The notes under the pieces were generated by a model, which was not told the origin of the DNA, did not search any database, and saw nothing but the letters and a program-made list of their open reading frames with translations. A DNA stretch of 38,514 bases, taken from an uncultured Synechococcaceae cyanobacterium (lineage in GTDB: Bacteria > Cyanobacteriota > Cyanobacteriia > PCC-6307 > Cyanobiaceae). The DNA is taken from the NCBI GenBank assembly GCA_903934375.1, contig CAIZNP010000236.1, positions 1-38,514 on the forward strand, written 5' to 3'. Each line of letters opens with the position of its first letter. Within the stretch, counting starts at the first letter, position 1. Below, piece after piece: positions 17,079 through 19,140 of the stretch. The position numbers were made by a program, and so were the translations under genes.

Positions 17079-17354
17079 ATGACGGAGCCCGCCGTGGACC
17101 CCGCCCAGCCCTACCGCCTGCGCTGCACCCTCACCTTCGGCGACATCTACGGCCAGATCCTGATCTGGATGCTGGTGATCATCGTGAGCCTGGCGGCCGG
17201 CCTTGCCCTGATGGGCGCCAGCAAGCCGATCTTCGCCCTGGTGGGGGTGGGCCTGATCCTGGTGCTGTCGCTGCCGTTCCTGCTGTTCGCCTTCACCACC
17301 ACCCTGCTGAATCACATCGCCCTCGAACCCGCTTCCCGCGACGGGGCTGCCTAG
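17079..17354 (+). CDS. Small two-helix membrane protein, unknown function
   Basis: The 91-residue product has a short polar N-terminus (PYRLRCTLTFGDIYGQ) and two hydrophobic helices, about residues 27-46 (LIWMLVIIVSLAAGLALMG) and 50-75, ending with a short polar tail. A GGAGG purine stretch sits about ten bases before ATG 17079. I do not recognise a named family; it looks like a conserved picocyanobacterial membrane protein. It lies 24 bases before msrA and could share its transcript. Codon and base use match the neighbours. Confidence 0.75.
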   Translation: MTEPAVDPAQPYRLRCTLTFGDIYGQILIWMLVIIVSLAAGLALMGASKPIFALVGVGLILVLSLPFLLFAFTTTLLNHIALEPASRDGAA

Positions 17355-17378: not shown

Positions 17379-18134
17379 GTGTTCGGACTGTTCCAGGCCA
17401 TGACCGGCGACAAGACCAGCCTGGTGAGCCGTGAAGCCGCCCTGCCGGGGCGTTCCACACCGATCACCACGGCGGAGCGGCATGTGGTGCTGGGAACGGC
17501 GCTGAAGGCGCCGCTCACCACCATCCAGGAAGAGGCCCTGTTCGGCTGCGGCTGCTTCTGGGGCGCTGAGAAAGGGTTCTGGCGTCTACCCGGGGTGGTG
17601 TGCACCGCCGTGGGCTACGCCGGCGGCCACACCCCCAACCCCGCCTATGAGGAGGTGTGCTCCGGCCGCACCGCACACACCGAGGTGGTGCGGGTGGTGT
17701 GGGATCGCAACGCCATCGATTTCAGCGATCTGCTCAAGTTGTTCTGGGAGTGCCACGACCCCACCCAGGGCATGGCCCAGGGCAACGACAGCGGCAGCCA
17801 GTACCGCTCGGCGATCTATGTGAACTCGCCAGAGCTGCTGCAATGCGCCACGGCCTCCCGGGATCGCTACCAGACGCTTCTCCAGGCCGCCGGACGCGGT
17901 GCGATCACCACCGAGATCGCAAGCGAGCAGCCCTTCTACTTCGCCGAAACCCATCACCAGCAGTACCTGGCCCGTCCTGGCAGCAGGCCCTACTGCTCGG
18001 CCCGCCCCAGCGGTGTGCTGCTGGACGGCTTCGAGGGTGCCAACTTCCAGCTGCCGGCGTCGGTGTGGAGCCATTACGACTGGTCGATCAGCCACTGCGT
18101 GCTGCGTGGCGACAACGACCCGATCCTGTTGTGA
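17379..18134 (+). CDS. msrA: Peptide methionine sulfoxide reductase MsrA
   Basis: This 251-residue enzyme reduces methionine-S-sulfoxide in proteins. It shows the catalytic GCFWG motif with nucleophile C59 (preceded by C57), VGYAGGHTPNPAYEEVCSG, QYRSAIYV, and a C-terminal PGSRPYCSA segment that supplies a resolving Cys. An N-terminal extension of about 50 residues ahead of the core is usual for the plant/cyanobacterial type. The start is GTG 17379. The stop overlaps the GTG of the next gene by four bases (GTGA), so the two are probably translationally coupled. No secretion signal is visible, so this copy should act in the cytoplasm against photosynthetic oxidative damage. Confidence 0.95.
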   Translation: MFGLFQAMTGDKTSLVSREAALPGRSTPITTAERHVVLGTALKAPLTTIQEEALFGCGCFWGAEKGFWRLPGVVCTAVGYAGGHTPNPAYEEVCSGRTAHTEVVRVVWDRNAIDFSDLLKLFWECHDPTQGMAQGNDSGSQYRSAIYVNSPELLQCATASRDRYQTLLQAAGRGAITTEIASEQPFYFAETHHQQYLARPGSRPYCSARPSGVLLDGFEGANFQLPASVWSHYDWSISHCVLRGDNDPILL

Positions 18135-18499
18135 GGCGCCACGCTCCCGGGACACGGACCGGCCCACGACGGGCCCGGCTGGCAGGGGCTCTGACCCTGG
18201 CCCTTGCGGCCGCACCGCTGGCCAGCCCTGCCGAGCCGCTCCAGTCCCCCTGGTGGGAGGACTACGCCATCCGCGACCGCTACCTCTGTCGCCCCGAGGG
18301 AATGGTCGTGCTGGAGCGCAATGACGCCCAGGCCTCGCTGATCCAGGGGCGCTACCGCAGCACCTTTTTTCGCGAGAGTTCCAATGAGCCCGGTCTGCGC
18401 TACAGCGGCGATGGCATGCGCCTGATCCTGATGGGCGATGAGCTCACCCTGGAGCGTCTGCCCCAGAGGATCCAGTGTGTACGCACCGATCAGGTCTGA
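18131..18499 (+). CDS. Exported protein resembling the MliC lysozyme-inhibitor domain
   Basis: The 122-residue product has an Arg-rich start, a hydrophobic core (LAGALTLALAAAPLASPA) and a likely signal peptidase site near residue 34, so it should be periplasmic. The mature part follows the order of MliC/PliC-type inhibitors: YLC (C53), a strand around VVLERN, ASLIQGRYRS, GLRYSGDGMRL, GDELTLE and a final C116, allowing one disulfide. MliC proteins block C-type lysozymes; here the match is by pattern only and the role is inferred. The GTG start is embedded in the msrA stop (GTGA). It could instead be an unrelated small beta-barrel protein. Coupling to msrA suggests a cell-envelope stress setting. 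Confidence 0.65.
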   Translation: MRRHAPGTRTGPRRARLAGALTLALAAAPLASPAEPLQSPWWEDYAIRDRYLCRPEGMVVLERNDAQASLIQGRYRSTFFRESSNEPGLRYSGDGMRLILMGDELTLERLPQRIQCVRTDQV

Positions 18500-18512: not shown

Positions 18513-18719
18513 ATGAATCAACTCCCCGATCGAACCGTGGTGATCGGCCTGCTAGCCACCCTCGGCGTGGTGTTCGCCCTGGTGTTCTGGTTCGTGCGCC
18601 TGGCCCCGCCGACGGAACCGCCGATGCTCTGGCGTCAGGCGCCTGGCGAGCGAGCGCCGGCAGCGCGGCCAGGCCTGAACGCGCCACGCCAGGGAGCAGC
18701 CGAAGGGTCACTGATCTGA
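18513..18719 (+). CDS. Small single-helix membrane protein, unknown
   Basis: ATG 18513 opens a 68-residue protein: MNQLPDR, one hydrophobic helix (VVIGLLATLGVVFALVFWFV), then a Pro/Arg/Ala-rich tail of about 35 residues that is probably disordered. I know no family for it. It starts 13 bases after the MliC-like gene and on the same strand, so it probably belongs to the same transcript. The frame is open upstream to 18438 but that part overlaps the preceding gene. No catalytic or binding motif is visible. Confidence 0.6.
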   Translation: MNQLPDRTVVIGLLATLGVVFALVFWFVRLAPPTEPPMLWRQAPGERAPAARPGLNAPRQGAAEGSLI

Positions 18720-18855
18720 TCCAGCGCCAGCCACGCTGCAGGATCAGTGGATTGCGGGACAATGCCGTCAGCGGTGTCCGCCACCGCCGTCGCGCTGCCA
18801 CCAGGCCTTGGATCCGAAGCCACAACGCCAACTTCATCCCCTGCCACGGGGCCTA

Positions 18856-19140
18856 GTGGAGCTGTACGGCCTGCTTGCCGTGCTGGTCGTGCTGGTGCCG
18901 GAATGGATGGCCGGGGGAGCCCTTGCGGGCTTCCAGCAGGGACGCGAAGGCAGCACCCTGCCGGTCACGGCGGGAGCCTGGCGACGGGTGCCGGAGCTGC
19001 GGCTGGCGGCGATGACCCTGCGTGAGCTGCGGCAGCTGGCACGGGAGCTCCGTCTCGGTGGCTATGCGGGCCGCAACCGCGAGCAGCTGAACGCGCTACT
19101 CCTGTGCCGGATCCGGGCCAGGGCCCCAAAGACGCTGTGA
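18856..19140 (+). CDS. Membrane-anchored protein with a Rho N-terminal/SAP-like domain
   Basis: From GTG 18856 the product is 94 residues; a TTG at 18808 would add a basic 16-residue lead. An N-terminal hydrophobic segment (LYGLLAVLVVLVPEW) could anchor it. The second half (LRLAAMTLRELRQLARELRL, then GGYAGRNREQLNALLL) has the helix-turn-helix rhythm of Rho_N/SAP-like domains, which in other proteins contact nucleic acids or ribonucleoproteins. The domain call is by pattern and the role is unknown. tRNA-Pro follows 15 bases downstream and the shared terminator at 19261 may end both. A membrane-tethered nucleic-acid-type domain is unusual. Confidence 0.65.
   Translation: MELYGLLAVLVVLVPEWMAGGALAGFQQGREGSTLPVTAGAWRRVPELRLAAMTLRELRQLARELRLGGYAGRNREQLNALLLCRIRARAPKTL

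Follow-up and report, generated by a model that had tools for sequence, protein, structure and literature searches.

A divergent MliC/PliC-like barrel protein, probably exported, in Cyanobium-type picocyanobacteria and its possible role in restraining a peptidoglycan glycosidase

A small gene that overlaps msrA in an uncultured picocyanobacterium encodes a protein, here called X, that is predicted to adopt the barrel of the MliC/PliC lysozyme inhibitors and does so without the motifs by which those inhibitors grip lysozyme. The reading we prefer, to which we give somewhat less than an even chance, is that X represents a divergent branch of the MliC/PliC barrel, located in the periplasm, that restrains one of the cell's own peptidoglycan-cutting glycosidases, for example an SLT lytic transglycosylase, through a new surface. 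This gives a predicted fold and a testable role to a protein that is conserved in Cyanobium-type picocyanobacteria, is probably exported, and has no name in the four family libraries searched.

The analysed stretch of DNA, referred to throughout as the window, is 38,514 nucleotides long, and the genes surrounding X are listed in Table 1. The gene upstream of X certainly encodes a complete MsrA peptide methionine sulfoxide reductase, since its product matches both PF01625 (E 1.1e-54, Pfam search) and TIGR00401 (187 bits vs. a cut-off of 108.1, NCBIfam search) and carries the GCFWG motif. This MsrA extends for about 50 residues before and about 45 residues after the Pfam domain and aligns over nearly its full length with most of the relatives compared, and a second MsrA match is present elsewhere in the window genome. 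A reading made earlier from the sequence alone had described a GTGA overlap between the MsrA gene and a gene for a small protein with two Cys residues, and both observations proved accurate: bases 18131-18134 are GTGA, so that the start of X overlaps the end of msrA by 4 nt, and the only Cys residues of X are Cys53 and Cys116. An in-frame GTG further upstream was considered as the start of a longer X and discarded, as a stop codon intervenes in several relatives. Further downstream, the 110-aa protein has a hydrophobic N-terminal part, and a tRNA-Pro follows the X block. A promoter scan of this region of the window found nothing, and the single terminator-like site, located after the tRNA, is no more than expected by chance.

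Table 1. Positions in the window of X, its segments and the neighboring genes
Feature	Position	Strand	Description
91-aa membrane protein	17079..17354	+	5' of msrA
msrA	17379..18134	+	251 aa; GTG start; stop TGA at 18132-18134; GCFWG motif at residue 58
protein X	18131..18499	+	122 aa; GTG start; probably exported; predicted MliC/PliC fold
signal-peptide-like segment of X	18131..18232	+	residues 1-34, ...ALTLALAAAPLASPA; assigned by hydropathy, putative cleavage site
mature domain of X	18245..18496	+	residues 39-122; SPWWEDY tag followed by eight strands (model); Cys53 in strand 1, Cys116 in strand 8
loop-4 region of X	18377..18403	+	residues 83-91, SSNEPGLRY; corresponds to the SxSGAxY loop that MliC inserts into lysozyme
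TM68	18513..18719	+	68-aa single-span small membrane protein adjoining X
110-aa protein	18808..19140	+	C-terminal half Rho_N-like (weak; PF07498 E 3.1e-4, below cut-off)

The gene for X is genuine. In named records, 92 relatives were confirmed, the best 80 of which were kept as loci; the 70-sequence alignment and profile (A2) combines 69 of these 80 fetched loci with the window after near-duplicates were dropped by eye, while another alignment (A5) took in 43 of the 80 loci. Across the 70 sequences, 16 positions are invariant (SPWWE, Y45, C53, ERN, QA, FR, D103, and C116). The dN/dS of the mature domain was 0.05-0.26 in nine pairs of relatives and about 0.44, higher than in the other pairs, between the window and L031, a comparison with few changes; judged from these sequences, the mature domain is under purifying selection. 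With the 70-sequence profile (E <= 0.001), X was detected in 137 of 400 family genomes and in 16 of 59 genera, at one place per genome in 136 of the 137 carriers, and 22 of 25 genomes of the window's genus carry it. Among 60 near genomes, 29 matched at E <= 0.1, and only the 24 with E <= 4e-13 were counted as carriers. A class-wide draw of 242 genomes contained X in 4 (E <= 0.01), all from the window's family. The branch has so far turned up in Cyanobium-type picocyanobacteria. The record titles of the 80 loci (best 80 of 92) are mostly Cyanobium, Vulcanococcus, Synechococcus, or unnamed cyanobacteria, and a few stand under other names (Aphanothece, Microcystis elabens, and Bifidobacterium breve). 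The last of these, a metagenome bin (L075), carries X together with the whole cyanobacterial gene block, so its record name or binning looks wrong. By our reading of strain and lake names, carriers belong mainly to non-marine lineages. A viral origin of X was not supported, as none of 37 pattern matches on viral contigs was a relative at the pattern sensitivity used. Neither Pfam nor NCBIfam matched the X of the window at E <= 10, nor did PHROGs or PADLOC at E <= 0.1, and searching it as a single sequence against PDB sequences returned nothing useful. Among the papers listed on lysozyme or lysozyme inhibitors in cyanobacteria or with msrA, none on X was apparent from titles or the opening lines of abstracts.

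The sequence-only reading had also likened X to MliC/PliC and had named an unrelated fold, or an uncleaved signal peptide, as the result that would overturn its interpretation. Two structure models and a profile comparison with shuffle controls bore the likeness out. An AlphaFold2 model of the window X with 69 relatives has eight strands (pLDDT 83.7, pTM 0.70), as does a second AlphaFold model led by the relative L110 (pLDDT 86.5, pTM 0.76), which is 48% identical to the window X. Both models thus predict the eight-stranded antiparallel barrel of the MliC/PliC family, and the two Cys residues, invariant in 70 of 70 sequences, lie in strand 1 (Cys53) and strand 8 (Cys116), where they could join the first and last strands in a putative Cys53-Cys116 disulfide. 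The top PDB match of both models was Brucella PliC (window model: Z 12.0, 2.9 A over 79 residues; L110 model: Z 12.3, 2.0 A over 81 residues), followed in both cases by Pseudomonas MliC and Salmonella PliC and then by Brucella PhiA and Neisseria ACP. The eight best entries for both models consisted of Brucella PliC (two), Pseudomonas MliC, Salmonella PliC, Brucella PhiA (two), and Neisseria ACP (two), spanning Z 12.0-9.1 for the window model and 12.3-9.8 for the L110 model. The first unrelated entry, a D-aminopeptidase domain (1ei5), reached Z 8.8 and 9.3, which is near the ACP rows, with PliC and MliC clearly higher. Foldseek placed the same MliC/PliC/PhiA/ACP group in the top four rows for the window model (E 0.0026-0.011) and the top eight rows for the L110 model (E 0.013-0.09), and these E-values taken alone (best 2.6e-3) are weak. 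Ranks 5-11 for the window model were DNA sliding clamps (E 0.13-0.22) and were set aside.

Small barrels are common, unrelated ones score up to Z 9.3 here, and the identity of X to MliC/PliC in the structural alignments is only 12-18%, all of which would suit convergence of small barrels in place of common descent. We consider convergence very improbable, given that the eight best entries in both searches all belong to the MliC/PliC/PhiA/ACP group and given the outcome of the profile comparison. In hhalign, the X profile matched an MliC profile (A4, composed of E. coli MliC and 13 cyanobacterial MliC domains) with P 9.2e-5 and a probability of 59%, and with a score of 30.5 and a probability of 74% upon rerun. 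This score exceeded all 250 shuffles, with maxima of 17.7 for 150 column shuffles of MliC and 20.8 for 100 shuffles of X, and a reversed profile scored 13.6. The Cys residues and the G-x-R-Y element fall in matching registers in this alignment. E. coli MliC alone gave a weak match to the X profile (probability 13.9%, P 0.002). PF09864 itself touched 12 of the 70 X members at E <= 10 (best E 0.0018); it found nothing in the window X at that threshold and had 0 matches in the window genome. A profile of 11 X sequences searched against PDB sequences retrieved only phycocyanin chains (E 0.58 and worse). Weak hits to PF11720 (best E 0.0063, in 3 of 70 members) and to eRF1 were treated as noise, as was a further set of hits with a best E of 0.025. 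Because the profile score beats the shuffles, and in view of the weak PF09864 matches and the structural matches, we conclude that the relation between X and MliC is one of remote homology and not only of similar shape.

The barrel is shared; the lysozyme-gripping motifs are another matter. According to an excerpt of one structural account, MliC and PliC grip lysozyme through SxSGAxY in loop 4 and YxxxTKG in strand 6 (PMC5507604). The first is missing from X: none of the 70 sequences has SG..Y, the window has SSNEPGLRY, and the aligned central Ser of the motif is Pro in 56 of 70. The Lys of the second is found in only 4 of 70 sequences, with Arg in 49 and Met in the window, although the position is basic (49 Arg plus 4 Lys) in 53 of 70. 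The loop-4 segment from FR to Tyr measures 10 residues in 65 sequences and 16 in 5; these five (L081, L085, L089, L095, and L101) have six extra residues at the position from which MliC reaches into the lysozyme cleft. Neither the window X nor any member reaches the PF09864 family cut-off. Since the gripping motifs are missing, the key Lys is rare, and Pfam makes no call, X is, as far as its sequence indicates, not a standard MliC and has its own invariant signature (SPWWE.Y, ERN, and QA).

Standard MliC proteins do occur in this family. Of 121 family genomes, 14 have Pfam-called MliC domains at other loci, and each of these 14 also carries X; across the class, 26 of 194 genomes had a PF09864 match that passed the cut-off. 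Together with a 2008 paper that already reports COG3895 proteins in Cyanobacteria (PMC2267010), the latter count means that the mere presence of MliC-type proteins in cyanobacteria is no novelty. The family MliC domains (L130-L143) have SG.RY in 13 of 14 (DG in L143), a count that leans towards the motif because 13 of the 14 were selected with a pattern containing SG..Y and the 14th was read afterwards; W.KG is present in 10 of 14 and W.HQG in 4 of 14. The four W.HQG domains (L134, L137, L138, and L142) form the C-terminal end of longer reading frames, or lie close to that end, and come from four X-carrying genomes of the window's genus.

A lysozyme-inhibitor function, as proposed by the sequence-only reading, is left without support because both of the defining contact motifs were tested for and are missing from X. 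The attached idea of defence against grazers, lytic bacteria, or phage lysins is possible but likewise gained no support. A version of this idea is that X inhibits outside lysozymes (from a grazer, predator, or phage) through a non-canonical surface. Neisseria ACP, which has the same fold as MliC/PliC and, by prediction, as X, inhibits lysozyme without the motifs, so lysozyme inhibition by X is conceivable; the basic residue in 53 of 70 sequences at the Lys position would fit, and one of the two motifs is likewise altered in some Pfam-called MliC proteins of the window's family (W.HQG in 4 of 14, DG for SG in 1 of 14). We nevertheless judge it unlikely, at roughly one chance among several, as SG..Y is found in none of 70 sequences, Pro replaces Ser in 56 of them, the window has Met at the Lys position, loop 4 comes in two lengths, the gene evolves slowly, viral contigs yielded no relative at the pattern sensitivity used, and an MliC gene already accompanies X in the same genome in 14 of 14 MliC-positive family genomes.

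X is probably exported and would then be a soluble periplasmic protein. The segment preceding the domain has a best 10-residue hydropathy of 2.13 in the window and a median of 2.42 (lowest 0.99) in 80 relatives (best 80 of 92), variable in sequence with the hydrophobic character kept, compared with a median of 1.22 and a maximum of 1.68 for X mature domains. An AxA-like site lies within 5 residues of SPWW in 59 of these 80 relatives, a lipobox-like sequence is present in 2 of the 80, and the window leader has no Cys. These features suggest that X is exported and that its leader may be cleaved. The leaders of L033, L071, L073, L091, L098, L100, and L102 are only about 12-18 residues long, such as MIALLVPLLALS before SPWW in L073, which is short for a Sec signal; several relatives have hydrophobic leaders of no more than 12-13 residues.

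Gene neighborhoods were counted in 80 named loci (best 80 of 92 relatives). All 80 contain the Rho_N-like gene, 79 have TM68 beside X, MsrA is present in 72, and 66 have the 91-aa membrane protein. In 71 of the 80 loci MsrA is found no more than 250 bases upstream of the X domain, and in the other 9 it is not adjacent; among the 71 MsrA-adjacent loci, 16 could have X start at a codon that overlaps the MsrA stop by 4 nt. The translational coupling claimed by the sequence-only reading therefore stands as a real GTGA overlap in the window but is not a conserved arrangement, and the synteny comparison it had proposed shows a loose link between X and MsrA. In eight of the 80 loci (WH 5701 type), the stretch fetched has no MsrA and an ABC ATPase gene precedes X, while X, TM68, and the Rho_N-like gene stay together; the upstream genes were read in three of these eight, and the gene before the ABC ATPase looks NUDIX-like by eye. 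In several genomes of genus g58, msrA lies 8 to 43 kb from X on the same contig (G198, G081, G121, G146, G184, and G232).

Could X still be a periplasmic oxidative-stress factor functionally tied to MsrA, which was the fallback of the sequence-only reading? The 71 adjacent loci and the GTGA overlap in the window speak for such a factor, but the idea leans on a loose adjacency: no more than 16 of 71 loci would allow the overlap, eight loci have the ABC ATPase gene in front of X and no MsrA in the fetched stretch, and MsrA matches (E <= 1e-20) occur in 378 of 400 family genomes vs. 137 of 400 for X. X also looks exported and has a hydrophobic N-terminus, whereas the window MsrA, by eye, has none. 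Because adjacency and overlap are both loose across loci, the overlap in the window says little about a function shared with MsrA; the connection looks incidental, a functional role with MsrA is unlikely, and we regard the oxidative-stress factor as the most improbable of the explanations weighed here.

TM68 is the more faithful neighbor, and it had no match in Pfam, NCBIfam, PHROGs, or PADLOC. X might accordingly be a barrel without enzyme inhibition, acting as a structural or binding subunit of the envelope and perhaps as a partner of TM68. In favor of this are the adjacency in 79 of 80 loci, the 4-nt start/stop overlap of X and TM68 in 35 of 76 measurable loci, the pairing of the two where MsrA is not adjacent, and the new invariant residues of X. 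Two loci (L115 and L121) have TM68 directly after msrA and no X there, so TM68 does not need X, and the tested proteins of MliC fold in the papers we met are hydrolase inhibitors. We hold a non-inhibitory subunit to be unlikely, though with enough behind it to be kept in mind.

The preferred reading, restraint of an enzyme of the cell itself, has X binding and restraining a peptidoglycan-cutting glycosidase of its own periplasm. The candidate target would be the single SLT lytic transglycosylase of the window genome, in which one SLT-type match was found; MltA was dropped as a target for this genome, which has no MltA match. Recognition would involve a surface different from the SxSGAxY/TKG double key, probably the SPWWE.Y tag and the ERN and QA positions. 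The target, the binding surface, and inhibition itself are our inference. The single copy, low dN/dS, and 16 invariant positions suggest housekeeping rather than an arms race, and slow evolution, one copy, and coexistence with MliC together favor an internal partner. Among 161 genomes, 122 have SLT and 81 of these carry X, and of the 39 in which SLT was not detected, 1 carries X among the matches listed (with 20 of the 39 SLT-negative genomes listed); 41 of the 122 SLT genomes lack X, and G095, which has X and no detected SLT, is the only X-positive genome at least 90% complete that is absent from the SLT list up to G272. Such nesting of X within SLT would be expected of an SLT target, but clade and genome size would also produce it, so it is weak evidence. 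Inhibition of a transglycosylase has precedents. The lytic transglycosylase SagA of Brucella is described as being inhibited by PhiA from the same organism (PMC12343572), and in Pseudomonas MltB is inhibited by Ivy proteins and MltF by the structurally unrelated IltA (PMC10746161). That transglycosylases might be targets was already suggested in the paper that discovered MliC (PMC2267010). A still more specific proposal is that the MliC barrel has been turned from a defence inhibitor into an internal SLT brake, a clade-specific core regulator of wall turnover marked by the SPWWE.Y/ERN/QA signature; we put this forward as speculative, with perhaps a modest chance of being correct. X separates the MliC barrel from the lysozyme-gripping motif in a phototroph and is relevant to whether the MliC inhibitor fold, besides its use in defence, also has a part in wall homeostasis, and control of picocyanobacterial wall turnover could be tested directly through it.

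Compared with known systems, X shares with MliC/PliC (PF09864/COG3895; P. aeruginosa MliC 3f6z, B. abortus PliC 4mir, S. Typhimurium PliC 3oe3, and E. coli MliC/YdhA 2f09) a small protein of exported type, the predicted eight-stranded barrel, Cys residues in the first and last strands, G-x-R-Y after loop 4, and G-D after strand 6. It differs from them in having no SxSGAxY Ser and, in the window, no TKG Lys, in its invariant N-terminal SPWWE.Y, and in not being recognised by the Pfam model. The MliC proteins of the same bacterial family (L130-L143) are related to X by profile and all 14 reside in X-carrying genomes, but they occupy other loci and retain SG.RY (13 of 14) and W.KG (10 of 14), whereas SG..Y is seen in 0 of 70 X sequences. 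Neisseria ACP (5my7 and 6gq4), like X, has an MliC-like barrel without the MliC/PliC motifs; an excerpt of PMC5507604 describes it as having a disulfide and inhibiting lysozyme. Inhibition by ACP has been measured, whereas X is known from sequence and model, and the two are 15% identical in the structural alignment. Brucella PhiA (7dpy and 7dsg) has the same fold as the X model, to which its match is structural only (Z 9.6-10.7), and, described as an inhibitor of its own cell's transglycosylase, it exemplifies the role proposed for X.
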